From Oceanococcus sp. HetDA_MAG_MS8 (GTDB lineage Bacteria > Pseudomonadota > Gammaproteobacteria > Nevskiales > Oceanococcaceae), in NCBI GenBank assembly GCA_019192445.1, contig JAHCMK010000009.1:62001-126000 (forward strand): a DNA stretch of 64,000 bases, in the 5' to 3' direction. Positions 5,825-62,479 of this stretch are shown here, piece by piece. Under the pieces are notes generated by a model. The model was not told where the DNA came from, did not search any database, and worked only from the letters and a program-made list of their open reading frames with translations. Every line of letters starts with the position of its first letter. The stretch's first letter is position 1. Both the position numbers and the translations under genes were made by a program.

Positions 5825-7347
5825 GAGCAGACCCAGGATCGGGCCAGGGCCATCAACGCCATGCCGTGGTGATTGGAAGTGGTTTTGGTGGGCTGGCCGC
5901 AGCGGTTCGCCTTGGCGCCCGTGGCTACGCGGTTACCGTGCTAGAAGCCTTGGATGCACCAGGTGGGCGCGCTTATGTGTACCGCCAGGACGGCTTTACC
6001 TTTGACGCCGGGCCCACCATCGTGACCGCGCCCTTCTTATTCGAAGAGCTTTGGGAACTGGCCGGCAAGCGTCTGGCCGATGATGTGGAGCTGGTGCCCT
6101 GCGATCCCTTCTACCGGATTCGTTTTGCCGATGGCTCCAGCTTTGACTACAACGGCGACCCCGAGCAGATGCGATCGCGCATCCGTGATTTCGCGCCGGG
6201 CGATGAGCAAGGTTATGAGCGTTTCATGGCCTTTAGTGAACGGATTTTCCAGGTCGGCTTTGAGCAATTAGGTCATGTGCCTTTTCATCGTTTTGGGCAA
6301 ATGCTCAAGGTGGCGCCAGACCTCATTCGCCTGCGCAGTTATCAAAGCGTCTACAGCCTGGTCTCCAGCTTCGTGCGCGACGAGCGCCTGCGGATTATCC
6401 TGAGTTTCCACCCCTTGTTGGTCGGTGGGCACCCTTTTCATACCACCTCGGTGTACGCCCTGATTTCTGCGCTCGAGCGGCGCTGGGGGGTGCATTTCGC
6501 CATGGGTGGGACGAATCAATTAGTGACTGGCTTGGTCAAGCTGATCGAAGGCCAGGGCAACCGCGTTCGCTGCCAGGCACCGGTGCAGCGCATTTTGATT
6601 GAGCAGGGGCGCGCCGCTGGCGTACAGCTGGAATCGGGCGAGCAGATTCCGGCCGATGTGGTGGTGTCCAATGCCGATGCGGCCACCACTTATCAGAAGT
6701 TGCTTGGTGATCATCCGCGGCGGCGCTGGACAGACCGCAAGCTGGCCCGGTCGCGCTCATCCATGAGTTTATTTGTGTGGTACTTCGGCACGCGTAAGAC
6801 CTACCCCGATGTGCCTCATCACATGATTCTGCTTGGGCCACGCTATCGCGGATTGCTGGACGACATTTTCCGCAAACAGGTCTTGTCCGATGATTTCAGC
6901 TTGTACTTGCATCGGCCCACGGCGACGGATCCCAGTTTGGCGCCCTCAGGCTGTGACAGCTTTTATGTGCTCTCACCGGTGCCGCACCTCGAGGACGGTA
7001 CCGATTGGGAACAAATGGCCGAACCCTATCGCCAGCGCATCGAAGCCTTCCTGGCAGGTTCCTTCCTGCCGCAGCTTGGTGAGCACATTGTGAGCTCGCG
7101 CATGCTCACACCACAGGATTTCGCAGATCGGCTGCGCTCCTATCGCGGAGCCGCCTTCGCAATGGAACCCAACTTGCTACAAAGTGCATGGTTCCGGCCG
7201 CATAACCGCAGTGAGGAACTGCCTGGATTGTATTTGGTGGGTGCGGGCACTCACCCCGGCGCTGGTCTGCCTGGCGTTTTGTCTTCTGCTCGCGTACTGG
7301 ATCAGCTCATACCTCATGCACAAAGTCTTTACGCTTCCGCTGGCTGA
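5821..7347 (+). CDS. crtI: Phytoene desaturase CrtI
   Basis: FAD-dependent desaturase (508 residues) that converts phytoene to neurosporene or lycopene. The dinucleotide-binding motif is VIGSGFGGLAAAVRLGARG near residue 15-35, and the CrtI-type C-terminal signature LYLVGAGTHPGAGLPGV is present near residue 470. The start overlaps the bchO stop by 4 bases and the 3' end overlaps crtB by 32 bases. With crtB, crtC, crtD and crtF here and no crtA, a spirilloxanthin-type end product is likely, which would need a three- or four-step CrtI; the step number cannot be read from sequence. Confidence 0.95.
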   Translation: MRADPGSGQGHQRHAVVIGSGFGGLAAAVRLGARGYAVTVLEALDAPGGRAYVYRQDGFTFDAGPTIVTAPFLFEELWELAGKRLADDVELVPCDPFYRIRFADGSSFDYNGDPEQMRSRIRDFAPGDEQGYERFMAFSERIFQVGFEQLGHVPFHRFGQMLKVAPDLIRLRSYQSVYSLVSSFVRDERLRIILSFHPLLVGGHPFHTTSVYALISALERRWGVHFAMGGTNQLVTGLVKLIEGQGNRVRCQAPVQRILIEQGRAAGVQLESGEQIPADVVVSNADAATTYQKLLGDHPRRRWTDRKLARSRSSMSLFVWYFGTRKTYPDVPHHMILLGPRYRGLLDDIFRKQVLSDDFSLYLHRPTATDPSLAPSGCDSFYVLSPVPHLEDGTDWEQMAEPYRQRIEAFLAGSFLPQLGEHIVSSRMLTPQDFADRLRSYRGAAFAMEPNLLQSAWFRPHNRSEELPGLYLVGAGTHPGAGLPGVLSSARVLDQLIPHAQSLYASAG

Positions 7348-8374
7348 TGCCGACGAATGCCGCGCCGTTCTGCGCGCCGGCTCCCGCAGTTTCGACTGGG
7401 CTTCGGTGTTGTTACCGCGGCGAGTTCGACGCCCAGCAACGGCTCTGTATGCCTTTTGCCGGGTGGCCGATGACGCCATCGACGGCGAGCAGCAAGCCTT
7501 GCCGGCACTGCGTGATTTACGCCGCCGGGTGGACTGCATGTACGCCGGGCGGCCGGCCGCCAACCCCATCGACCGAGAGCTCGCCAGAGTGGTGCGCGAA
7601 TACGACCTCCCGCGGGTGTTGCTGGATGCCATGCTCGAAGGCTTTGCCTGGGATGTGCAACAACGCAGCTATGCTGACCTGCGAGAGGTGCATGCTTATT
7701 CGGCGCGTGTAGCCGGCTCGGTGGGTGCCATGATGGCTGTGTTCATGGGGGCGCGGAGTTACCCGCAGCTGGCTCGCGCTTGTGACCTCGGGGTGGCCAT
7801 GCAGCTGACCAACATCGCGCGCGATGTGGGAACCGACGCACGTGCTGGTCGGCTCTACCTGCCACACAACTGGTTGGCGCAGGCTGGTATTGATGCCCAG
7901 CAATTTCTGCAAAATCCGCAGTTCACCCCCGCCCTGCAACCTGTGGTGCAGCGGTTATTGCGGGCGGCCGAGCGGCTGTATAAGCGGGCTGATGCGGGTA
8001 TTGCGAGCTTGCCGCTGGACTGCCGCCCTGGGATTTATGCGGCCAGACTGATCTACTCACGCATCGGTACCGCCTTATTGGCAGCCGATTGCGATTCCGT
8101 CAGCCAGCGTACGGTGGTGTCACCTCTGGCGAAGGCTGTATTGGTCGGTCGGAGTTGGTTGCCGATGAACCACTGCCCCGAAGACTTCACTCAGCCACCG
8201 CTGGATGCGAATCGCTTCTTGGTCTGCGCCGGCGCGGATACTCAGGCAGATCATGTACCAGAGTTGCCCCCAGCCTGGTGGCAGTGGAGTGCGCAGCTCG
8301 TCCGCGTATTGGGCTTGTTCGAGCGCTTGGAGCGCCGGGAGCGAGAGAGCTTAAGCGACCAGCGCGCTGTGTAA
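7316..8374 (+). CDS. crtB: Phytoene synthase CrtB
   Basis: Condenses two geranylgeranyl diphosphates to phytoene, the first committed carotenoid step. Two Asp-rich motifs of the squalene/phytoene synthase family are visible: DDAID early in the protein and the signature QLTNIARDVGTD. The ATG at 7316 gives 352 residues and begins inside the crtI end; a longer frame reaching 7184 would add non-homologous hydrophobic sequence that is really crtI read in another frame. CrtB is followed after 3 bases by a tiny membrane gene. Confidence 0.94.
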   Translation: MHKVFTLPLADADECRAVLRAGSRSFDWASVLLPRRVRRPATALYAFCRVADDAIDGEQQALPALRDLRRRVDCMYAGRPAANPIDRELARVVREYDLPRVLLDAMLEGFAWDVQQRSYADLREVHAYSARVAGSVGAMMAVFMGARSYPQLARACDLGVAMQLTNIARDVGTDARAGRLYLPHNWLAQAGIDAQQFLQNPQFTPALQPVVQRLLRAAERLYKRADAGIASLPLDCRPGIYAARLIYSRIGTALLAADCDSVSQRTVVSPLAKAVLVGRSWLPMNHCPEDFTQPPLDANRFLVCAGADTQADHVPELPPAWWQWSAQLVRVLGLFERLERRERESLSDQRAV

Positions 8375-8377
8375 GTC

Positions 8378-8506
8378 ATGGGTGAGCATTTAGCACTGGT
8401 GGAAATGCTGCTGGTCTTTGTACTGACCTTTGGCTGGGGGCTGTATGAACTGTGGAGCCTACGACGGGAGAAGCGTAAGCGCGACCACAACGCCGACTCC
8501 CAGTGA
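8378..8506 (+). CDS. 42-residue single-span membrane protein
   Basis: A very short frame directly after crtB (3-base gap) and overlapping the next gene by GTGA. The predicted product has a short acidic N-terminus, one hydrophobic span (about residues 8-27, ending in Trp and Tyr) and a strongly basic tail with RREKRKR, a classic inside-positive single-pass topology. I do not recognise the family. Its tight packing in the pigment operon and good membrane topology argue that it is real. It could be an assembly or complex-stabilising peptide, but that is inference. Confidence 0.6.
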   Translation: MGEHLALVEMLLVFVLTFGWGLYELWSLRREKRKRDHNADSQ

Positions 8507-8769
8507 TCAGCCTTTTCCAATACGGCTGGTTGACCGGCTTGGCCTTGGTTGTGATCGCCGTCGATATGGTGATGTGCGCCTGGCGCCATCGCCGCGCAGG
8601 GAGCAGCTGGGCATTATGGTTGCCGCATCGCGTGGCGGGCGCGGCTTTATTGCTGAGTGTGCACCTGAGCCTGCCCACCACATACCCCACTTGGGGTTTG
8701 ATCTTGCTGAGTGTGGCCGGCCTGGCGCACCTGGCCGATAGCTGGGCGCAGCGCAGCAGCGCGACTTAA
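8503..8769 (+). CDS. Small 88-residue membrane protein of the crt/bch operon
   Basis: GTG start overlapping the stop of the 42-residue gene. The product has about three hydrophobic helices with a basic loop (WRHRRAG) after the first. No cofactor motif is visible and I do not recognise the family. It is the last gene of the bchP-to-crtB run and ends in a TTAA that is also the stop codon of the convergent crtC. A role in pigment synthesis or membrane assembly is suggested only by position. Confidence 0.62.
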   Translation: MISLFQYGWLTGLALVVIAVDMVMCAWRHRRAGSSWALWLPHRVAGAALLLSVHLSLPTTYPTWGLILLSVAGLAHLADSWAQRSSAT

Positions 8770-9692
8770 GCCCGGCGTGGCATCCGAAATGGCAGCATCA
8801 GCTGCACCAATGGGTGTGCAAAACGATCCAGGTCCAAACTTTCATGCACGCCTTCGAGCACTTGACCGTCCAACTGGCAGCGCACATGAGAGCGCGTGTA
8901 AAAGGGCGCATCCTCCATGGCCTTGAGCAGCTGCGGAGTAGGTTCACTAAGAATGGGGCGCTCGACGCCCCAAAAGCCACGGCCTAAGTGCTGTTCCGGG
9001 GCCCTGCTGTGGAGTTGCTGCAAACCCTGCGGGCCGATATGTAAATCCAAACTCTGTGCAGCGCTGCGGCGAGGGTGAGCGGCGTACACGATCCTGCACC
9101 CATCGCCTTGATGAAAACGGCTCCAGTGCCAGCGTCTAAAGCCTTGTTCTAGAGCCTCGCTACCGCGGTTATGGTCGGCGTAGGCGCGGCCAGTCCACTG
9201 CAGCTGAGGCTGCTGAAGTGTGACGCGAACTCTGGCGTTAGCGCCCCAGGGCTGCCATAGGTGCCGCGCTTCGGCGTCTAGGGCCAGAGCCTCATCCAGG
9301 CCGGAATGCACCTCCAACTGCACTTGCCCCCGCACTCGGCGGGGCAGGGGAGCACAGACTTCATCGAGCTCCAGGCGCAGACCCTTGGGGCTACGCTGTA
9401 TACAACTGGGACCAATACGCCAGGTCTGCGGCTCGACTTTGCTAGATCCGCGCTCGGTCATCGCCCAGCGGCCGCCGGGCCCATAAAGGGCGATGTTGAG
9501 CGCGCAGTGCTGCATGGCTGGGGTCGGTCCACGGCGGCGGCGCCAAGCGTAGTAAGGGGAGAACACACTGCCGATGAAGGCAATGATGGTTAGGCCATAG
9601 CGACCGCAGTCCGATAAGGCATCGATATACCACCAGGCATAGCCGTTATCGGGAACGGCGCGGGTCCAGTCCGGGGCCGCAGGCGTGTTCAT
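8766..9692 (-). CDS. crtC: Carotenoid 1,2-hydratase CrtC (hydroxyneurosporene synthase)
   Basis: Adds water to the C1,2 double bond of neurosporene or lycopene derivatives on the way to spirilloxanthin. The 308-residue product starts with the family-like NGYAWWYIDALSDCGRYGL and carries FGSVFSPYY-type (here IGSVFSPYYAW) and WTGRAYADHNRG stretches. The ATG at 9692 overlaps the crtD stop (TAATG), so the pair is translationally coupled on the minus strand. A TTG at 9698 is two codons upstream but would lie inside crtD. It converges with the 88-residue membrane gene. Confidence 0.93.
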   Translation of the reverse strand: MNTPAAPDWTRAVPDNGYAWWYIDALSDCGRYGLTIIAFIGSVFSPYYAWRRRRGPTPAMQHCALNIALYGPGGRWAMTERGSSKVEPQTWRIGPSCIQRSPKGLRLELDEVCAPLPRRVRGQVQLEVHSGLDEALALDAEARHLWQPWGANARVRVTLQQPQLQWTGRAYADHNRGSEALEQGFRRWHWSRFHQGDGCRIVYAAHPRRSAAQSLDLHIGPQGLQQLHSRAPEQHLGRGFWGVERPILSEPTPQLLKAMEDAPFYTRSHVRCQLDGQVLEGVHESLDLDRFAHPLVQLMLPFRMPRRA

Positions 9693-30438: not shown

Positions 30439-31902
30439 CTATCGCGGCCGCGTGAGGGTTTCTGGACTTAAGCCAAGTTCCACCAAGTTCACCGTGGCGG
30501 CGTCGTAATGCGTGCGTGCCGTGCGGGCGCGCATGGCGGCGTCGTGGTAACGCACCTGCGCATTGGCTGCGGTTTCTTCGCGTAAATTCACCACGAAGAA
30601 GTCACTGGCCCCACTCTCAAAGCGGCGCACTTCAGCTAAGCGCAGCGTTCGGGCCTGTTCGACTTCGTCAGCCGCTAACTCATAGAGTTTTTCGGCTGCT
30701 TGCAGCTCCTGCAGGATGTTGCGTAAATCCAGACGGAGTTGGTCTTCGGTTTGCTGCAGATCAAGCAGAGCGGCCTGTAGCTCAGCCTCGCCTTCGCGGA
30801 CCCGCCCACGGGCTTCGCGCAGTTGCAATGGCACCGAGAAACTCATGCCGATCACCGTATCGGTGGAGTCTCTGGAGTTACCGCCTTCGGCAACAGCGCC
30901 CAAGCCATCGGCAACTTCGAGTTTGAAGTCCAGCTCCGGGAGGAGGGCATTGCGCCTGAGTTGCAGCTTTTGCTGCAGCCGCTCCACCGTCAGCGTTTGC
31001 AGCAGTAGCTCCGGGCGCTGCTCACGAATGCGCTGCCAGGTCTGGTCAGCTTCTAAATTGGGTGAGGCGAAGCGCTCTAAGGGCTGGTAGGCCGGCAGGA
31101 TGCTCACGGAGACCGGGCGTGGTTCACCATCAACACTGCGCAAGAAAAAGCTCAAATCGTTGCCGGCAGTAATAAAATCGCGCCGCGCCGCCTCCACAAA
31201 GGACTGGCGACGGAGTAGGTTTTGCCGATTCTCGGTGAGATAAATGGGCGCTAGCGCACCCCGGTCAATTTGAGCTTTGAGAGCAGTTTGGCGCTCGTAA
31301 GCTAACTCCAGCAAGTCCTCATACACCTTCAACTGACGCCCTTTGGCCACCCAGTTCCAATAGGCAATGGCCGCGTCACGTTGCACCTGCACCTGAGTGA
31401 GCAACAAGGAATAATCCGCAGCCAGTAAAGAGAGGCTGCTATCGATTTCTCCAAAGCGCGCCTTGTCGATGGCTCGGTCGCGCAGTAAGGGCAGGTTGAG
31501 CCCGGCCTTGAGCGTGCCCCCAGTGTTGGTGAAGGACTCGTCTTCGTAGATGGGAAAGTCGCCCTCGGAGACCCGATACTCCGAGTACACAGATGCACCG
31601 AGACTGCGGAGCTGCTGCTTGGCTTTACCTCTTAAGGAGTTGCCATCGTAGAACCCGCTGGCCCGGCTGGAGGACTCGGCGCTGAGTTGTAGATCAAAAG
31701 CACCGCGCGCAGCCTCCAGGCTGCCGGAACGCGCTTCTCGCTGAGCAATGCTGCGCCGAATGGCGGGAAACCTCGCCTGTGAGGACGCCAGCACTTCATT
31801 GAGCGTAAGAGCGTCTTGAGCTGGGCTCAGTCCCGGGGCGAGCATAGCTGCACCCATGATGAGTAATGCCCAGCAATGGCTAGGCCGAGCAGCACGAATC
31901 AT
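30439..31902 (-). CDS. TolC-family outer membrane efflux protein
   Basis: 487 residues with a Sec signal ending around LSPAQD. The body is long amphipathic helix with the two-fold repeat of TolC-like channels (for example DLRNILQELQAAEKLYELAADEVEQA-type helices and NLREETAANAQV). Last gene of the minus-strand operon ABC-HlyD-TolC, with its start overlapping the HlyD stop by 4 bases. It would form the outer-membrane exit of that exporter. Confidence 0.88.
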   Translation of the reverse strand: MIRAARPSHCWALLIMGAAMLAPGLSPAQDALTLNEVLASSQARFPAIRRSIAQREARSGSLEAARGAFDLQLSAESSSRASGFYDGNSLRGKAKQQLRSLGASVYSEYRVSEGDFPIYEDESFTNTGGTLKAGLNLPLLRDRAIDKARFGEIDSSLSLLAADYSLLLTQVQVQRDAAIAYWNWVAKGRQLKVYEDLLELAYERQTALKAQIDRGALAPIYLTENRQNLLRRQSFVEAARRDFITAGNDLSFFLRSVDGEPRPVSVSILPAYQPLERFASPNLEADQTWQRIREQRPELLLQTLTVERLQQKLQLRRNALLPELDFKLEVADGLGAVAEGGNSRDSTDTVIGMSFSVPLQLREARGRVREGEAELQAALLDLQQTEDQLRLDLRNILQELQAAEKLYELAADEVEQARTLRLAEVRRFESGASDFFVVNLREETAANAQVRYHDAAMRARTARTHYDAATVNLVELGLSPETLTRPR

Positions 31903-32918
31903 TGGGCGGGTTGATCAGGAAGGCTGGGCGGGAAGTTGTTGAGCTGACGCCACAACTCATAGCCTACGTTGGTGGTGCCAAGCAAAATCCAGCCCTGAGC
32001 TTTGGCGCCAAAGCGGACAAAACGTTCTTCCGGCCAGGGCTCATCGCTATCGGTGTCTTCGGTGACGAGCACGCGGAATTGACCGTTGACCTGCGCCGAG
32101 GGATCCACCGCCACCACCTTACCGGGGAAGGTGCCAATGGCCACCGAAGGCCAACCACTAAACTGCACAGCCGGCCAGCCCTCAAACTGTAGGCGCACCT
32201 GGGCGCCAGGCTGCACGAGGGCCACATCGCGGCCGTCAATGAACAGCTCTACGGCGCGTTGCACATTGTCGGGAACAAAGGTGGCAACGACGCTGCCAGT
32301 GTTGATAAAGGTCGCGGTATCTCCAGCATTGACGCGCAGAATGACGCCATCGCGGGGCGCGCGCACGATCTGCATGGACTGGCGCGACATGTTGACTTCG
32401 ACCCGGCTCAGTTCGGCGGCGGCTTCGGCGACACGTGCTCGCAGCTCAGCCACACGAATACGGCTTTGTTCGTATTCCCGTCTAGAGGCCAATCCGTCAT
32501 CGAAGAGCTCTTGGGTACGGCGTAGGTCGATCTCAGCCGTGGCCACAGCCGATTCAGCAGCGTTGAGCTTTGCCATCACTTGGCTGCGTTCGGTATTCAG
32601 CCGCTCTAAGAGTTGTGGGTCGTTGTCCACGATACGCACGATGGGGTCGCCTACTTTGACCGGCATACCATCGTGAACGTACCACTCGGCAATGCGGCCG
32701 GAGACTAAGGCGTTGATTTCTTGTTGGCGGTCGTTAGGGTTGAGTGCGGTGACCGCTCCCATGCCGGTGGTTGTTTGCACCCAGGGTGTGAAGGCCAAAA
32801 AAAGGCCGCCCAATATGAGGAGAACCACAATCATGCGGCTGACTTGCGGCATGACCCGAGGAATGCGCTGGTTATTCAGCGTCCGAAAATGCGTGTAGTG
32901 ATCAGCAAGAGTAGGCAT
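31899..32918 (-). CDS. HlyD-family membrane-fusion protein
   Basis: Periplasmic adaptor, 339 residues. One N-terminal membrane span (about residues 27-47), a biotinyl-lipoyl half GRIAEWYVHDGMPVKVGDPI, a central coiled coil with Glu/Ala/Arg heptads (ATAEIDLRRTQELFDDG) and a second lipoyl half ending in RAPRDGVILRVNAGD. It links the ABC protein encoded 10 bases upstream to the TolC protein downstream. Confidence 0.9.
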   Translation of the reverse strand: MPTLADHYTHFRTLNNQRIPRVMPQVSRMIVVLLILGGLFLAFTPWVQTTTGMGAVTALNPNDRQQEINALVSGRIAEWYVHDGMPVKVGDPIVRIVDNDPQLLERLNTERSQVMAKLNAAESAVATAEIDLRRTQELFDDGLASRREYEQSRIRVAELRARVAEAAAELSRVEVNMSRQSMQIVRAPRDGVILRVNAGDTATFINTGSVVATFVPDNVQRAVELFIDGRDVALVQPGAQVRLQFEGWPAVQFSGWPSVAIGTFPGKVVAVDPSAQVNGQFRVLVTEDTDSDEPWPEERFVRFGAKAQGWILLGTTNVGYELWRQLNNFPPSLPDQPAQ

Positions 32919-32927
32919 GGTCAGGAC

Positions 32928-34694
32928 TCAGCGCATCCGATTACGGGGAGATTCCAGGGTGTGCAGGCTTTTCTCGGCCAATGCTTTGGCATTGCGTAAG
33001 TACTCTATAAAGCTATCGCGCTCCGTCCACGCGCGTTGTTCTTGGCTTTGGAAGAACATGAAATGACTGTAACCGCGGTCAATATCGCTGCGATTCGAGA
33101 AGTGAATCACCGTCGTTCCAGCATTCTTCTGCAACAAGTCCAAACTGTGCTGCAGGGCATCGCCGGGCATGTTGTCGTAAAGAGCATTCAGAACCAGCAC
33201 GCGCGGCTCGGCCAAAATAGCGGCTGCTAGTTGCAAACGCATTGTTTCATTCACCGACAAGGGCCAACCGGTGACGGCTAAGGAGGTATCCAAGCCCTTT
33301 TCCAGCTGGCTGATCGTCACCTCCAAATCCACGGCGCGGATGGCGCTGGTGATGCGGTCCGCATCGGAGGCGTCGGCGCACATGCGTAAATAATCGCGAA
33401 TACTGGTTTCCACCGCGGTGGGGCGATTCAAAACGATGACGCGCTGACGCAGCGTATTGAGGTTGATGGCGTCAATATCGACGCCACCCACGGCCACATA
33501 CCCGCTATTGGGCCGCTCGTTGCGTTTGATCAGATGGGTGAATTCCCGCTGCAGGCCATGGTTCTCACATTGGGCCAGGACGCGCGCGCCAGAGGGCAGG
33601 GCCAAATGGAACTCCACATCCGCCCCGCGGGCGACGCTACGTGCATGAACTAACTCTACCCGGCCATCGCGGATGTCGGTGCTGGTATCGGCGGTAGGCT
33701 CTTCTTGCTCAATTTGGTCAAACAGCGACAGCTCGTCAATGGCCGCGATAAGGTCATAAAAATAGCCTAGGTAAATCCCCATCTGGGAGAGCCCATAGAG
33801 CACCACCGAGAAGACGAGTTCCGCTGCGACCAGCTGCCCCAATGAGAGTTGGCCTTGAATGACCAGCCACCCGCCCAAGCCCAGGAGGATGGCGCTCATG
33901 GCGGCATACAGGAACAAAAAGGCTACGTTCTGGGAAAAGTAGTGACGGAAGTGCTCCACATGTTTATCGATGTAGTGGCCGGTTTCTTTGTCAGTGCGCC
34001 TGAGGGCGTCGTCAATATGCCGCGCCGACTTGAAGTAGCCATTCGACGCCGCCAAACCCTCCAACCAGGCGGCGGCTTCATGTTTGGCATGCGATTTGGC
34101 CATGGCCGAACGCATAGCCGGCTTGCCCCAGATCGCCCAAACACTCCAGGCCAAAGCCACGGTGACAATGCTAAACAGCAAGAACAGCGGGTGATACAAG
34201 GAAACCAAAACCACTCCCACCACCGTTTGCAGCAATATCGTAAAGCCGCCGATGAGTAGGTTCGGAATGCGGTTAACCACCACGATGATGTCGAAGTAGC
34301 GGTTAAACAGAGGAACTTTCTTGCTGTCCTGGAAAAAGGGGTTCACCGCGTAAATGGCTCTGAGCGCGATGTCGGCCACCAGCCGCGAGTAAAAGCGCCG
34401 CGCAAACAAATCCATTAAGTGGATGCGCATGGCATTGAGTAATCCCGACAGGAGCAACAGCACAAACAGCACCACCGACAGCACAACCAAAGGTGCGGCC
34501 ATACCGGTGTTGGCGATGGTGTTGATGAGCATCTGCACCGAAATGGGTGTGGCCAGCGAGAGCACGCTGATGCCAATGCCATAGATGATCGTCAGCCAGT
34601 AATAGCTGCTCTCGGGCTTAAGGATGTGCACGAAGTAACGCAGCACATGCTTCAGGGAATGCTCAATTTGAATGCTGGTACTGGGTTGGACCAT
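32928..34694 (-). CDS. ABC exporter with degenerate nucleotide-binding domain
   Basis: 588 residues from the ATG at 34694 (a TTG at 34802 is possible). The N-terminal ~330 residues are a six-helix exporter domain like HlyB/PrtD. The C-terminal domain keeps the ABC layout but has lost its catalytic residues: the Walker A place reads ARVLAQCENHGLQREF (no GxxGxGKS), the Q-loop reads VIVLNRPT, the signature LSGGQ reads LSVNE, Walker B reads VLVLNALYDN without Asp-Glu, and the H-loop reads HFSNR. ATP hydrolysis looks impossible. Encoded with HlyD and TolC partners; no functional ATPase gene adjoins. Confidence 0.85.
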   Translation of the reverse strand: MVQPSTSIQIEHSLKHVLRYFVHILKPESSYYWLTIIYGIGISVLSLATPISVQMLINTIANTGMAAPLVVLSVVLFVLLLLSGLLNAMRIHLMDLFARRFYSRLVADIALRAIYAVNPFFQDSKKVPLFNRYFDIIVVVNRIPNLLIGGFTILLQTVVGVVLVSLYHPLFLLFSIVTVALAWSVWAIWGKPAMRSAMAKSHAKHEAAAWLEGLAASNGYFKSARHIDDALRRTDKETGHYIDKHVEHFRHYFSQNVAFLFLYAAMSAILLGLGGWLVIQGQLSLGQLVAAELVFSVVLYGLSQMGIYLGYFYDLIAAIDELSLFDQIEQEEPTADTSTDIRDGRVELVHARSVARGADVEFHLALPSGARVLAQCENHGLQREFTHLIKRNERPNSGYVAVGGVDIDAINLNTLRQRVIVLNRPTAVETSIRDYLRMCADASDADRITSAIRAVDLEVTISQLEKGLDTSLAVTGWPLSVNETMRLQLAAAILAEPRVLVLNALYDNMPGDALQHSLDLLQKNAGTTVIHFSNRSDIDRGYSHFMFFQSQEQRAWTERDSFIEYLRNAKALAEKSLHTLESPRNRMR

Positions 34695-34879
34695 TGTTAT
34701 AGCTAGTGGTAGCCGAAGCACGCGGCGGTAAAGGTTCTCGGGGGATACATCCGTCAGGGAAAAGCAACGACCACTGAAATGCTCTGTGCCGGTTAGCGGC
34801 AACCCATCCCAACAATCCGCAGCCTAACCAGAGCCCGGCTTAGTCCATCCGGGCGCGCAAAAAGTTCCAAGGGGGCAGA

Positions 34880-40924: not shown

Positions 40925-43315
40925 GTGACCATCGTACTGACCACCTTCCAGCCTCGTGCTGGCCATCTACCTGCATCTGCAACACCTGCATCAACTCGTG
41001 ACGAAATGCAGTTGCCGGCGGCTGAATGCCTTACTCGGCATGGGCTTTTGCGGCGGCTGGGTCTGGCCACTGTCATGAGCGCCACCTTGCTGGCCGGCTG
41101 TGGCGGAGGCCGCCCCGCGGCCGCTCCTGGAGGCGGGGCGGGCAGCGGCAACGCACCTCCTCCTGTCGCGGGCCAAGCTTTGGGCAAGTACGACCTGTTC
41201 AACCAATGTTGGGTGATGAAGGCCGACGGTAATTACGTCACCCGGGCGGGTGATGCCTTCTTTGCCAATGGTCAATCGGCAGATGATGCCGAGCGCTTTT
41301 ACATGCGGGCCGCCAATTTGGCGCGCTACTTGTTCTACACCACCGATGAGGCTCTGCTCACGGCCAGTGGCTCCGCTGTATCCACCGTGCCCCAGTCCGC
41401 TCCTGAAGATGGGTCGGATTGGACCTTCTCCGAAGACGGCGCCGTGCTCAACGCGGCGGCGCTAGGCGGTAATCTCGCGGTAGACACCGATGGTGTGCTC
41501 GTCGTTGGCTCAACCCCGGCGGCTTTGCAATTTGAGCCCGCAACGGGCTGTGCCGAATATCCCGAGATGCCGCTGGGTGTAATCGGTACCACCTTCAAAG
41601 GCGACATCAACAAACCCCTACTCGGCTTTGCCGAGGTTCATACCCATATGGCCATGGGCAGTGAAATGTCCGACGGCAGCGGCAATGTTGGTCCCTCCGC
41701 CGGTGGGGTGATGTATGGCCAAGCGGTCAACCGCTTTGGCGTCACCGAGGCCCTCAAAGACTGCCAGGATCTGCATGGCCCCAATGGCATCACCGACCCC
41801 GAAGCGCTGATTCTGGATATGGAACCGGGGCGTACACATGACACCCAGGGTTGGCCCACTTTTGTGGACTGGCCCTTCCATGACTCTATGCTCCACCAGC
41901 AGATGTACTGGCGCTGGGTGGAGCGGACCTGGATGGCCGGGCTGCGGTTGATGACCATTCATGGAACCAATATCGAAGCGCTCTGCCAGGTGGCCCAGGC
42001 ATTAGGACCCACACGTGGGCAGAACCCGGCCGAGGTGGAGTGCCGGGATATGCCGGTGGGTGTGCAGCAGGTGGAGTACCTCTACGAGATTCAGGACTAC
42101 ATCGACGCCCAGTACGGCGGCCCCGGAAAAGGCTTTTACCGCATTGTTGGCAGCCCCGATGAGGCCCGGCAGGTGATTGCCGAGGGCAAGCTGGCAGTGG
42201 TGCCGGGCCTGGAGTTCTCCAACCTCTTTGGCTGTAACGTGACCTTCCTGCCCGATGGCAGCGAAATTCCCCAATGTGATCGTGCTCAAATTGATGCCGA
42301 AATTGATCGCATCTGGGATTTGGGTGTGCGCCAGGTCTTCCCCTATCACGACATCGACAGTGCTCTGGGCGGCGCCGGGTTGTTCGGCACCTCCAACGTG
42401 CTGGAGTTCTTCAACCTCACGGGTACAGGCCGCTTCTTTGAAACCTATAACTGCCCGGACGGCGGCAATGGCGACAGCTACTTCTTTGATGCCGGCATGA
42501 CCAGTTTCGCGGACCCGCTCACGCTGGGTAATGACCCCTTAACGGATTTGCTGTTGGGCATTGCCGATGGTCTCACGCCGACCCTGCGTAGTGGTCGCCA
42601 ATGCAACAGCCGTGACGTGACCGAGCTTGGCATCTACGCCATCGACAAGATGATGAAAAAAGGCTTTGTCATCGATATCGATCACGCGGAATTGCGCAGT
42701 AAGCAAATCATGCTGGACTACGCCGCCACCACCGAGCCCAGCTATCCGATGGTGTCAGGACACAGCGCTCAAGGCGGGCTGACCAATGCTCAAGCCCGAC
42801 AGCTCATCGCGCAGGGCGGCATCATTTATCCCATCAACCAAAACGGCAAGGGTCATGTGGATTTCCTGGCCAAGCTGGCACCGCAGTGGGAGCAGTCCGG
42901 CACTGACCGACCCTTCTCCGCCGGTTATGGGGCCGATGCCAACGGTTTGCGCACCCTGCCGGGGCCGCGTGGCCAGGGCCGTATTGCCGAGACGGCGCCG
43001 GTGAACTACCCCTTCCAGATGTTCCAGGGTGAGGGCTGGGGTCCACAGTTCGATGGTATTGCGCCCATCACCGTGGAGTTGCTCGCCATCCCCGACGGCA
43101 AGATTTGGGATGTGAACGAAGCCGGTATGTACCACTACGGTCTCATTCCGGACCTGATCGAAGAAACGCGCATCGAGGGCGGCCAAGAGGCCCTGGATTC
43201 CTTCTATAACTCCGCCGAGACCTACTTGCAGATGTGGGAACGCACTTTGGACGCGGCGGCGGATGCGCGCACCAAGCCGGTACCGGAAACCGTGCCCGAC
43301 GTGGTTCTGCGGTGA
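40925..43315 (+). CDS. Lipoprotein metal-dependent hydrolase (dipeptidase/amidohydrolase-like)
   Basis: 796 residues from a GTG with GAGGAG 5 bases upstream. The N-terminal extension before the signal is long; LLAGC gives the lipid Cys at residue 59, followed by GGGR (the shared motif) and a Pro/Gly spacer. Amidohydrolase-type metal residues are visible: FAEVHTHMAMGS early, VPGLEFSNLFG, PYHDID, GFVIDIDHAELRSK and VSGHSAQGG, resembling membrane dipeptidase (M19) enzymes. Substrate unknown. A structured RNA leader precedes it. Confidence 0.72.
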   Translation: MTIVLTTFQPRAGHLPASATPASTRDEMQLPAAECLTRHGLLRRLGLATVMSATLLAGCGGGRPAAAPGGGAGSGNAPPPVAGQALGKYDLFNQCWVMKADGNYVTRAGDAFFANGQSADDAERFYMRAANLARYLFYTTDEALLTASGSAVSTVPQSAPEDGSDWTFSEDGAVLNAAALGGNLAVDTDGVLVVGSTPAALQFEPATGCAEYPEMPLGVIGTTFKGDINKPLLGFAEVHTHMAMGSEMSDGSGNVGPSAGGVMYGQAVNRFGVTEALKDCQDLHGPNGITDPEALILDMEPGRTHDTQGWPTFVDWPFHDSMLHQQMYWRWVERTWMAGLRLMTIHGTNIEALCQVAQALGPTRGQNPAEVECRDMPVGVQQVEYLYEIQDYIDAQYGGPGKGFYRIVGSPDEARQVIAEGKLAVVPGLEFSNLFGCNVTFLPDGSEIPQCDRAQIDAEIDRIWDLGVRQVFPYHDIDSALGGAGLFGTSNVLEFFNLTGTGRFFETYNCPDGGNGDSYFFDAGMTSFADPLTLGNDPLTDLLLGIADGLTPTLRSGRQCNSRDVTELGIYAIDKMMKKGFVIDIDHAELRSKQIMLDYAATTEPSYPMVSGHSAQGGLTNAQARQLIAQGGIIYPINQNGKGHVDFLAKLAPQWEQSGTDRPFSAGYGADANGLRTLPGPRGQGRIAETAPVNYPFQMFQGEGWGPQFDGIAPITVELLAIPDGKIWDVNEAGMYHYGLIPDLIEETRIEGGQEALDSFYNSAETYLQMWERTLDAAADARTKPVPETVPDVVLR

Positions 43316-53220: not shown

Positions 53221-55296
53221 GTGAGCGAGACCACCAAGGATGCGATCCTGCCTTTGCCATTGGGGCCAGGTCGCATTTACGACGAGATCAGCCCCAATCT
53301 GGTGGGCACCGGCTATGGCTTTGAGGTGCAGGCCTTATACCCCTTTCCCAAGCTGTATTTTCGGGCCAGCTATGAGGAACAGCAGCGTCGATATCAGGAG
53401 TTGACCGAGGCGCTGGAAGACAACTGGTACAACTACGACCTCATTCCCGGAGCAGTGGTGCATGGCAATCGTGGGTCTTATCAGGTGCAGCGCAATTCCA
53501 GTTGGGCTCTGCGCGGCAGTGATGACAACCGCAGCAGCTTTGCCCAGGAAGACCAGTTTGGTACGGGGGACGACTCTGACCCCGGTGAAGATGGCATCGA
53601 TATTTACGAGCCGCTGTTCTACTACTTTGACCGCAACTGGCATCTGTGGCTGACCAACACCCAGATCACCAACAACATTACGCGCTTGCTTTCGGTAGTT
53701 ACCGAGAATCTGACCGATGGTGGCGGGCCGAATTACTTTCGGATTAATACCCTCGACCCCATCTTGAGTTTGGCGCCGGCCACACGCGCCCAAGACATCG
53801 ACACCTTTGATTTCTATCCGCCACTGCCAGATCGCTATCCGCGGCAGCCATTTGATGCCGATTTTCGCAATGATGATGTCATTGGCTGGGTACAGCTTGC
53901 CCATGCCTCGCCTTTTCCGCGGATTGCTCCATACAAAGCTCACCTACCCAATTTCAAAGTGACCTCGGAGATGTTCCGGCGCACGGCGGAGTTTTGGGAT
54001 GATGATCTGGACCAAGCCATGGCCCAGGGTCGGGTCTTCGTGGTGGACTACAAGGAATACCAGGAGATGAACCTGCGCCCCCCAGCCACTAACTCGGCAG
54101 GCGGACGCTTCTACACGCCCATCGCCATGTTCGCCGTACCGCGCGGCGGCGGGCCGCTCAAGTTGATCGCCATCCAATCCACCCAGCACACGCCGGCCAA
54201 TGAGGCCGAGCGCCAAGCCTGGAAGCTGAACAACCAACAGCCGGCTGATCGGCCTCTGTCGGACATTCTCACCCCCACCGACGATTACTGGTCCTGGCAA
54301 ATGGCCAAGACCCTGTTCATGAGCATGTATGCCATGAGCGGCGTGATTGATCACTTGTCCATGCATGTGTATGTGGCGCCAATTGCGGTTGGCTTTTATC
54401 GCAGCATCCCGCGCCAGCATCCCCTGAGGGCATTGCTAGAGCCGCACTTCTTATCGCTGATATCCAATAACCATTCCGGCATCTTCTGGGATACCGGAAC
54501 CCAGATGATCAACGACAACCATTCCTATGGGCAGACCGACCAAGGCTTGCTGACAGGGATGGCGGACAAAGTCAGTGGCTGGACCGGTAAAACCTTTTTG
54601 GATGCCACGGTACAACGGGCCGGCTTCTACCATTTTGTAGAACACAGCACCCCGATTGACCGCAGCCAGCCCAATGCCTTTGCGGCTATCGAAGACTTCC
54701 CGCAGCTGGACGATAACGGCCTCATTCCGGTTATCCAGCGCTGGGTGCGGAACTACCTTAGTTTGTATTACCGCTCCGATGCCGATGTGCGCGAGGACCT
54801 TGAGCTACAGAATTTCTGCTCGGATGTAGCCCTCAACGGGCTTGTGAACGGCTTTCCGGAGGCGACGCCCAGTTTTGATTCCTTGGTAGATATTGTGACG
54901 CGCATCATTTATTGGATGAGCGTCAACCATGCTTTGGAAGCGACGTTGGGTTGTATCAAGCTAGGTCCTATGGGGTACTGGTCCGACCGTGTGCCGCGCA
55001 ATGATGAAACCAAAACGGAAGCCGACTGGTTCAATATTTTGCCGCCCATCAATGTCGGTTTGGCCATCTTCTGCGCTTCCAGGTTCTTCGTGGATTTGCC
55101 TCGGGAGTGGTACCGCTCCTTGGGTCGATTCCCAGAAGGGCAGTTCATGCACGACCGGCGCGTATACGCGCATCTACAGGCGTTTCAGAAAGAACTGTTG
55201 CAGATAGACAATCGCATTCAGGAGCGCAACCTCACACGCCGCTGGCCTTACACCATGATGCGCCCCGGCACCATGACCTGTAGCCCTTGGAATTGA
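53221..55296 (+). CDS. Lipoxygenase-family protein with altered iron-site residues
   Basis: 691 residues. The plant/animal lipoxygenase core is clear: RQHPLRALLEPHF, IPVIQRWVRNYLSLYYRSD and IIYWMSVNHA align with soybean-type sequences. No export signal is seen. In the ligand helix the family's H-x4-H reads DHLSMH, giving Asp377 where the first iron His is expected, with His378 next to it and His382 kept. His570 is kept, but the Asn/His four residues on is Ala574, and the C-terminal Ile ligand is Asn691. GTG start with GAGGAG 8 bases away. First gene of a four-gene operon. Confidence 0.85.
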   Translation: MSETTKDAILPLPLGPGRIYDEISPNLVGTGYGFEVQALYPFPKLYFRASYEEQQRRYQELTEALEDNWYNYDLIPGAVVHGNRGSYQVQRNSSWALRGSDDNRSSFAQEDQFGTGDDSDPGEDGIDIYEPLFYYFDRNWHLWLTNTQITNNITRLLSVVTENLTDGGGPNYFRINTLDPILSLAPATRAQDIDTFDFYPPLPDRYPRQPFDADFRNDDVIGWVQLAHASPFPRIAPYKAHLPNFKVTSEMFRRTAEFWDDDLDQAMAQGRVFVVDYKEYQEMNLRPPATNSAGGRFYTPIAMFAVPRGGGPLKLIAIQSTQHTPANEAERQAWKLNNQQPADRPLSDILTPTDDYWSWQMAKTLFMSMYAMSGVIDHLSMHVYVAPIAVGFYRSIPRQHPLRALLEPHFLSLISNNHSGIFWDTGTQMINDNHSYGQTDQGLLTGMADKVSGWTGKTFLDATVQRAGFYHFVEHSTPIDRSQPNAFAAIEDFPQLDDNGLIPVIQRWVRNYLSLYYRSDADVREDLELQNFCSDVALNGLVNGFPEATPSFDSLVDIVTRIIYWMSVNHALEATLGCIKLGPMGYWSDRVPRNDETKTEADWFNILPPINVGLAIFCASRFFVDLPREWYRSLGRFPEGQFMHDRRVYAHLQAFQKELLQIDNRIQERNLTRRWPYTMMRPGTMTCSPWN

Positions 55297-60370: not shown

Positions 60371-62479
60371 CTACAAGGTTTTCAGGTATTCGATAATTGC
60401 CTTGCGTTCTGTGTCGGTTAGTGCGTCGGAGAACTCGTGGCCGCTGTTACTGTTGCCAAGTATGCGCGTGTCAAAAACTAGGCGGCGATCCAATGCGTTT
60501 GGGGTTGGATCTACAGCAGCCAGAATCCCGGTATAACTCACCATGTCGTACAGGAAATTTGTCATGATTTGGTACATTGATGGACCTTCATCACGAAGTG
60601 GATTGCAATTGAATAGTGGGTCGCCAGGGAGACTGTCACAACCGAGTTCATAATGTTTCCAACCAACGGCTTCAAAATCGTATCCCGTGGATAAACTTTG
60701 GTCAAAGCCTACAATGCCCGTATCCTCACGAAGCTGACGCTGCCAAATTTCTTGTCGTTTTTCGCTATTGAGGACCGCCTCAATTGTTGGGACTGACCCG
60801 TTATGAAAGTATGGCGCGGTAGCCCAAATGCCATAAAGTGGTGGTGCTTGATAACCTTGACGTTTCTCCCATCCACATACTCCGGTTGGACGATTTGGGA
60901 ATAGATCATCGATAGTTTCTGTTAAATAATCTTTTTCTTCTGGTGGTACGTATCCTGGCACGCCGTCAGGGTATGCCCAATAACTGGTGTCCCAGCCCTG
61001 GCGTAGGCTCGTTGTCAGCATGTCCACGCGTGCGCGGTCAGTGCCAATAACCTCTAGGCTCGATAAATGTGCTGCTACGCCTTCGAGCGAGGGGTCTTCT
61101 AAGTAATTTGTATCGTTGACGTATCGAGGGGAATACGCGCCATGACAGCTTGCACAAGACCCATTGCCTCCATCTGGGCGTGGCGCATTGGCGTTGCTAG
61201 GCTCCTCCCATAAGTTCTTAGAATGGAAAAGAATCGCTCCAGCCTGCGCTAACCCTCTATCTATAACACCTGGGTATTTCGGTGACTCTAGGCTTAAGAA
61301 AAAGGCGTCCAAATGTTGATCCCACTTTTCGACGCGCTGGCGATACAAAGCGCCATCAGCAGTCACAAGTTGGTCTAACTCTCCGGGTCCGGCAGCCATG
61401 ATAATTCGGGTGCTGGCGTTGGATAAGCCTGCATCGAAGAACTTTCGTGGCCTGGAGCCGATATTCCACCACGCTGGAGTATCTTGGGTGTGGGCGAGCG
61501 GATGTGATACGTCGAATACGCCTTGGATGCCATACGGCGTAACCATTTTTGCCGGGTTTGGGTTTAAGCCTAGGGAGTCTATATCGAGAACTGTATTAAT
61601 AAACTCGAAACCACCTACAGCGTTGTTCTGACCACGCTGACGGATGCCCATGTTGTATACGATGTTTTGATCAAATGGAGGTGTGATTTCGCCGAGCGGT
61701 GTACCAACGAAAGGCGAGCCGTCCGCGGAGACCTGGGGCATATCGTAGTTATTATTTCCGAGCCCGATATTATCAAGCCCAATGATTACTGGCTCACCGG
61801 CCTGTGGTTCGCCAATCTGGCCACCGTGGCACTGGAAGCAGGCTGCAGTTTGAATATTACCTGTCCACAGACCTTGGTCATCACGGCCTTGACGATAACC
61901 AAGTGGAAGTTGGCCAGAGCCACCATTAGTTGTGTTTGGGTCCTCTCCGGGAAGTGGGTAGGGGTTGTGGAATGGAGCATAGTTTAGGCCGTAACGCAAG
62001 GTATAGAGTTCGTCAAACCTGTCTGGTCTCTCGTTAAACCCCCATTTTTTCCATGTGTCGTTATAGGCTTCTGCGGTAATTTGGCCGACAGGTAGTTCGT
62101 CGAGTAGAAACTTTAAGCCAAGGTCACGCCGTCTTCGCCATTCTCCACAAGTTTTGGGTGCCTGTTCTTCGGCCGGCAGGTTTTGATGACAGTTTTCCCA
62201 AAACGCGTTGAAATAAACCGCTCGATTCGCATTAACTCCCTCGACGACCAAGCTCCGTGGGTCGGGAGGTAGCAAAGTATCGTCTGGGGAGTTGGCGCAA
62301 ACCACTGCCCAACGGTGGCTGCCTCGTTTTCCGCCTAACAAGTCATTGGCGGCAAAGTTGTCTGGCCGTGAGTTTGTACGACCATTAATGACCCCTCCGG
62401 ATTCAGGTCGCCCGCCGTTGCACGCAGTCAATATCAGTCCCATACAAACGCACAGTAGGACTCGGGCGAAGTTATTCAT
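60371..62479 (-). CDS. Di-haem peroxidase/RoxA-like lipoprotein
   Basis: 702 residues. Lipobox LTAC then NGGR (shared motif). Two c-haem sites, CFQCH near residue 212 and CASCH near 440, and PYFHNGSVPTIEAVLNSEKR, the peroxidase/MauG C-terminal motif. Ordinary cytochrome c peroxidases have about 330 residues; this length is closer to RoxA/RoxB rubber oxygenases, but I cannot confirm that. AT-rich relative to the chromosomal core. Divergent from a TetR gene. Confidence 0.78.
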   Translation of the reverse strand: MNNFARVLLCVCMGLILTACNGGRPESGGVINGRTNSRPDNFAANDLLGGKRGSHRWAVVCANSPDDTLLPPDPRSLVVEGVNANRAVYFNAFWENCHQNLPAEEQAPKTCGEWRRRRDLGLKFLLDELPVGQITAEAYNDTWKKWGFNERPDRFDELYTLRYGLNYAPFHNPYPLPGEDPNTTNGGSGQLPLGYRQGRDDQGLWTGNIQTAACFQCHGGQIGEPQAGEPVIIGLDNIGLGNNNYDMPQVSADGSPFVGTPLGEITPPFDQNIVYNMGIRQRGQNNAVGGFEFINTVLDIDSLGLNPNPAKMVTPYGIQGVFDVSHPLAHTQDTPAWWNIGSRPRKFFDAGLSNASTRIIMAAGPGELDQLVTADGALYRQRVEKWDQHLDAFFLSLESPKYPGVIDRGLAQAGAILFHSKNLWEEPSNANAPRPDGGNGSCASCHGAYSPRYVNDTNYLEDPSLEGVAAHLSSLEVIGTDRARVDMLTTSLRQGWDTSYWAYPDGVPGYVPPEEKDYLTETIDDLFPNRPTGVCGWEKRQGYQAPPLYGIWATAPYFHNGSVPTIEAVLNSEKRQEIWQRQLREDTGIVGFDQSLSTGYDFEAVGWKHYELGCDSLPGDPLFNCNPLRDEGPSMYQIMTNFLYDMVSYTGILAAVDPTPNALDRRLVFDTRILGNSNSGHEFSDALTDTERKAIIEYLKTL

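Follow-up and report, generated by a model that had tools for sequence, protein, structure and literature searches.

We analysed a 64,000-nucleotide stretch of contig JAHCMK010000009.1 from Oceanococcus sp. HetDA_MAG_MS8 (positions 62,001 to 126,000 of the contig), which we call the window; coordinates below are positions within it. On its minus strand, three intact and close-packed reading frames (30439-34694) encode an ABC protein, an HlyD-family periplasmic adaptor and a TolC-family outer-membrane factor, in that order, in agreement with an earlier note that had read this stretch as a complete three-gene operon. The ABC gene (32928..34694) runs from an ATG at 34694 to a stop at 32928 and encodes 588 amino acids, with an alternative TTG start possible at 34802. 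A gap of 9 nt separates it from the HlyD gene (31899..32918), whose 339-aa product has one transmembrane helix at residues 22-43 (HlyD_3 52.2 bits; AlphaFold2 pLDDT 84.4), and this gene overlaps the TolC gene (30439..31902; 487 aa; OEP 107.6 bits) by 4 nt (ATGA). No promoter or terminator patterns above chance were found at the operon. It is flanked by genes for a PhoD-like phosphatase and a glyoxalase-family protein, neither of which recurs beside other loci of the family when the neighbours of the fetched loci are clustered. Elsewhere in the window we noted a bacterial lipoxygenase-family protein (53221-55296, plus strand; Pfam 72.8 bits), a RoxA-like cytochrome c protein from a family that includes rubber oxygenases (60371-62479, minus strand), and a 796-aa open frame at 40925-43315 (plus strand) with no Pfam match at E 1e-5.

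The ABC protein has the type IV ABC exporter fold. AlphaFold2, run with 57 family members, predicts six long transmembrane helices and a complete nucleotide-binding domain (NBD) in one chain (mean pLDDT 90.9), and in foldseek searches the best PDB matches of this model are PCAT1, HlyB and TM287/288, each with a probability of 1.00. The transmembrane domain (TMD; residues 14-327, 33714..34655, delimited by AlphaFold2 helices and conservation) passes the Pfam ABC_membrane model at 28.8 bits against a cut-off of 28. The pseudo-NBD (residues about 345-560, 33015..33662, from the alignment and AlphaFold2) scores 16.6 bits against ABC_tran, under the cut-off of 25, and lacks the motifs of an active ABC ATPase. 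When aligned with two intact exporters from the same genome, which served as the motif reference, it keeps none of the five catalytic motifs. GPSGSGKST at Walker A is replaced by CENHGLQRE (33543..33569), with Gln382 for the lysine; the Q-loop position (33417..33437) is one residue shorter than the canonical form and has Asn423 for the glutamine; the signature VSGGE/LSGGQ becomes LSVNE, within LSVNETM (33240..33260); LLILDE at Walker B becomes VLVLNA, within VLVLNALYD (33174..33200), so that Asn503-Ala504 stand in place of Asp-Glu; and the H-loop position HFSNRS (33087..33104) has Asn534 for the histidine. The earlier note's reading that every NBD motif had been replaced is thus correct and, judged by motif, the ATPase domain is dead. 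The operon encodes a type-I-secretion-like tripartite system whose inner-membrane part combines a type IV ABC exporter fold with a motif-less NBD.

This system is one member of a large clade under purifying selection. An alignment-based scan of a collection of species genomes found at least 563 encoded relatives, and we read the best 80 of these in detail (32-58% identity). Going by record titles, these 80 span Alpha- and Gammaproteobacteria, Myxococcota, Bdellovibrionota and Planctomycetota, and holders include Erythrobacter, Novosphingobium, Sphingomonas, Kordiimonas, Caulobacter, Alteromonas, Xanthomonas, Woeseiaceae and others. Seven other holder genomes belong to the same taxonomic order as the window genome (36-39% identity), and sphingomonad plasmids also carry the family (42-48% identity). 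Among 398 Pseudomonadota genomes drawn evenly, 11 hold it, with a single copy each. Its distribution is patchy, with neither the ABC nor the HlyD gene present in another genome of the same genus or in two further genomes of the same taxonomic family. Where a locus is long enough to judge, the order is almost always ABC-HlyD-TolC, and the family is inherited as a three-gene unit. Xanthomonas sequences are nested within Sphingomonas ones in the tree, which points to horizontal transfer of this unit, and it has probably spread in this way. Phages gave weak generic ABC matches only, and we rejected a phage origin for the gene. We also rejected a frameshift, a sequencing error or an alignment artefact as the source of the missing motifs, given the complete AlphaFold2 fold and the same losses at about 100 loci of other genomes.

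Motif loss is the rule in this family: 77 of the 80 scanned loci lack the motifs. These include all the close homologues, a comparison that the earlier note had proposed; the closest (50-58% identity) show the same losses and the conserved three-gene order. Among the 80, only L100, L102 and L103 keep Walker A, and other searches yielded two further such members, L119 and L152. All five lack the Q-loop glutamine and the H-loop histidine, and the full pair of Walker B acids survives only in L102 and L152. In L153, Walker A is gone and the Walker B aspartate remains. In our tree, which comes from a short search and contains several long branches, the motif-less members group on a single branch (SH-aLRT 97) that excludes L100, L102, L103 and the Bacteroidota sequences. 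These data establish in part that the motif-less clade is related to members that keep Walker A and are already without the Q-loop glutamine and H-loop histidine. The simplest order of events would be loss of the Q-loop and H-loop residues first, with Walker A, Walker B and the signature following later. The Bacteroidota member L023, on a plasmid of Aureibacter tunicatorum (5974-9031; HlyD 452 aa), has KYNATEKNV at the Walker A position and appears to have lost Walker A separately, which may mean that the nucleotide site was lost a second time independently.

We estimated dN/dS by the Nei-Gojobori method from close pairs only, which are not independent of one another; the medians over 75 such pairs are 0.10 for the TMD and 0.16 for the NBD, and all values are well below 1. 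HlyD values with dS above 1.5, which probably come from mis-picked frames, were ignored. These ratios, together with the intact frames, indicate that the dead NBD is under purifying selection and that the operon is being maintained, not decaying. The earlier note had argued for maintenance, and would have given this up if close homologues had intact NBD motifs and this gene showed relaxed selection; we found neither. That the transporter is decaying towards a pseudogene is refuted by the selection result, and we consider the chance of it negligible, since frames are intact at nearly all loci; the one locus that speaks for decay is L022, which has lost HlyD and TolC beside an IS3 element. This locus, on plasmid pTK1 of Sphingobium sp. 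TKS (5971-9045), retains the ABC gene with the IS3 element directly 3' of it, apparently a recent break.

Constraint is strongest on the membrane domain, whereas in ordinary ABC exporters the NBD is the more conserved part. Across 4095 family pairs, identity is 54% in the TMD and 39% in the NBD, and the TMD is the higher of the two in 99.6% of pairs. The two intact exporters of the window genome show the reverse (TMD 14%, NBD 37%), though as one pair from different subfamilies they serve as an illustration only. Invariant TMD residues of the family include Q54, R104, R132, Y167, K204, Q255, Q287, E292 and Y313. In the NBD, conservation is low at the Walker A position and is retained in the segment after the Q-loop position, in GLDT...GxPLS and in the strand before Walker B. 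The best-conserved NBD stretches are either structural or lie in the segment that faces the coupling helices in canonical exporters, a pattern consistent with an NBD that persists as a mechanical component; by analogy with those exporters, this component would contact the coupling helices.

The adaptor differs from that of the Walker-A-bearing relatives in its alpha-hairpin. In the window protein the hairpin is short (residues 103-180, 32379..32612, with helices of 38 and 35 residues in the AlphaFold2 model). Compared through the alignment and open-frame lengths, it lacks about 46 and 42 residues that are found in the Walker-A-bearing relatives, one block per helix and about 88 in total. HlyD proteins of the motif-less clade are 337-395 aa long (median 356, n = 82), whereas those of the Walker-A-bearing relatives exceed these by about 100 residues, most of which lie in the hairpin: the HlyD neighbours of L100, L102 and L103 have 449-456 aa, and L119 and L152 adjoin open frames of 455-464 aa. 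Adaptor shortening thus accompanies loss of ATP binding. L153/L163, in which Walker A is lost, likewise has a short HlyD (345 aa); L023, in which it is also lost, has a long one. The association is strong and imperfect and, because adaptor length and motif state are inherited along one main branch, it is close to a single evolutionary event. At the hairpin tip, the window adaptor has an RLS-type TolC-docking motif, RTQELFDDGLAS (residues 134-145, 32484..32519), with the spacing of the R-x3-L-x6-S/T docking pattern of AcrA, MacA and HlyD (PMC3391258). The pattern R-x3-L-x6-S/A/G is kept in 80 of 85 adaptors, so docking to TolC is probably retained despite the shorter adaptor.

Clustering of the genes that neighbour the fetched loci revealed only one recurrent neighbour across genera, a LysR-type regulator. 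One cluster of these regulators comprises 18 loci, at most but not all of which the regulator is adjacent, and is OxyR-like where tested; another, NhaR-like, comprises 8 loci, mostly from Alteromonadales and relatives, and neither the OxyR-like nor the NhaR-like scores reach the NCBIfam cut-offs. At about one locus in four, an OxyR- or NhaR-like regulator of this kind lies immediately upstream of the operon (L026, L077, L078, L020 and others; L071, L079, L080, L085, L088, L091, L097 and L102). No recurrent gene for a protein or peptide substrate was found by this clustering, which covered neighbours of 90 aa or more. Given the lack of such a gene and the small size of the adaptor, the substrate would more likely be a small molecule or a lipid than a secreted protein.

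Degenerate nucleotide sites are common in heterodimeric exporters (reviewed in PMC7756269), and the earlier note had accordingly suggested that the protein pairs with an active half-transporter encoded elsewhere. This idea found no support in the genomes we searched, none of which has an ATP-binding paralogue of the family or more than one family copy. The window genome contains four other exporters of the same fold: MsbA, an LssB-type type I secretion protein, a PglK-like protein and one that is Atm1-like in our own reading, with no NCBIfam match over the cut-off. In 12 other holder genomes we counted 4-8 exporters each, the family member included. The closed genome G108, examined for a co-occurring half-transporter as the note had proposed, contains, apart from its family member, exporters of the MsbA, Atm1 and PglK types only, and these three types are all that it shares with the window genome. 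The TMDs of the intact exporters that we compared are about 20% identical to that of the window protein. A dedicated partner gene would normally adjoin, and the operon has no second ABC gene; in neither the operon nor the exporter sets of the window genome and G108, which belong to other families, did we find a dedicated intact partner. Since the exporters found suggest none, a homodimer is the default, and we regard an obligate heterodimer as very unlikely.

We read the system as a tripartite conduit built on a pseudo-ATPase and probably independent of ATP at the ABC protein. We propose that the ABC protein would homodimerise, its membrane domains forming the pathway and its pseudo-NBDs acting as a structural clamp that holds the membrane domain together. 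HlyD and TolC would complete the duct, and the whole would let small molecules or lipids through as a gated conduit. The gate might open in response to the substrate, the adaptor or some other ligand that binds the pseudo-NBD; the ABC protein itself would run no ATP cycle, and the gradient of the substrate would power net export. We judge this explanation as a whole, with its homodimer, clamp and duct, to have an even chance of being right. The broader statement, that an entire widespread clade gave up ATP and became either a gated passive conduit or a transporter that spans both membranes and is driven by a gradient, with the NBD as a structural element, seems to us equally balanced between true and false.

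Other readings account for parts of the same evidence. A sensor or scaffold without transport activity, for example one that recruits HlyD and TolC to another inner-membrane pump, would leave the same sequence signature, including an NBD that keeps its fold and loses its nucleotide site. Regulatory, non-transport ABC proteins exist–SUR1, for instance, regulates a channel–but the three genes stay together from locus to locus and no pump gene recurs beside them, and the strongest constraint falls on the membrane domain, so we find this reading rather unlikely. That same constraint would suit a secondary active transporter on an ABC fold, in which proton or sodium flux would be coupled through E292 in TM6 and other charged residues. 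A conserved membrane acid suits ion coupling; E292 does not vary in the 57-row family alignment, nor do Q54, R104, R132, K204, Q255, Q287 and Y313 within the dead clade, and an NhaR-like regulator adjoins 8 loci. Against this, the regulators vary between lineages, and the Walker-A-bearing relatives have E292 too, which means that its origin did not coincide with the loss of ATP binding; we consider such a transporter unlikely. It is highly improbable that the protein is instead a hidden ATPase, binding and using ATP through rearranged residues as some pseudoenzymes do. The NBD fold and the high conservation of D507, R416 and P497 would allow for this, and weak or rearranged nucleotide binding is compatible with the sequence, but the Walker A lysine position has no conserved basic residue (Gln, Glu and others occur there), the Walker B pair has no conserved acid, and the P-loop varies within the clade and is sometimes one residue shorter.

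ABC transporters are defined by ATP-driven transport, and degenerate sites, although known, normally leave one working site. If the ABC protein is a homodimer, both sites are necessarily dead across a conserved bacterial clade, which would make this clade a natural system for studying the function of an ABC membrane domain in the absence of ATP. Partly intact relatives, along with the change in the adaptor, provide an evolutionary series for the transition. Our results also correct annotation, as public records label several family genes 'ABC transporter ATP-binding protein'. The parts of the system are of known kinds. Neither Pfam nor NCBIfam has a curated model specific to the ABC protein, and we found no published description of the family's dead motifs in the open-licence literature, with subscription journals mostly outside this scope. 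The HlyBD2-OMP2 system of Blastomonas fulva has been described as an ordinary HlyB-type ABC pump, with no mention of dead motifs (PMC9505733), and it is apparently a member of this family: the HlyD gene of our Blastomonas locus L038 is exactly 1053 bp, the length of hlyD2 (PMC9505733).

Among known systems, type I secretion by HlyB, LssB or PrtD has the same gene set, with the ABC protein, HlyD-type adaptor and TolC-type channel encoded together. The fold of the window model matches HlyB (8dck) with a TM-score of 0.84 by query length, and its best NCBIfam matches are type_I_sec_HlyB and bacteriocin_ABC, but its scores are far below the thresholds of the secretion models (85/725 bits for HlyB, 65/693 for LssB and 64/510 for PrtD). 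It also differs from these systems in having no C39-like domain before TM1 and no ATPase motifs, in the short hairpin of its 339-aa adaptor where type I secretion has a long one, and in the lack of a recurrent adjacent protein or peptide substrate gene of 90 aa or more at the family loci. The peptidase-containing exporters PCAT1 and ComA are the best structural neighbours; they differ in being peptidase-fused, active ATPases. The heterodimeric exporters TM287/288, TmrAB and BmrCD resemble the window protein in fold and in having a degenerate nucleotide site, but one of their two sites stays active, whereas here there is a single gene with all motifs lost and no partner found. MacAB-TolC and RND systems have adaptors of similar size, and the window HlyD scores higher against the RND_mfp model (TIGR01730, 87 bits) than against type_I_hlyD (65 bits). 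MacB has another fold and a periplasmic domain, and the window ABC protein has neither. The closest relatives outside the dead clade are the Walker-A-bearing L102, L103, L100, L119/L161 and L152/L162, from Methylococcaceae, Planctomycetota and others. They differ in keeping Walker A and the Walker B aspartate, in an HlyD of about 450-464 aa and, in some, in a longer N-terminus (the longer stretch before the TMD in L100 and L103, judged by eye, is possibly a C39-like domain), but they share with the dead clade the membrane-domain signature GQLVA(A/S)E, the HlyD signature LQFEGWPx...GWP, and the neighbouring HlyD and TolC genes.
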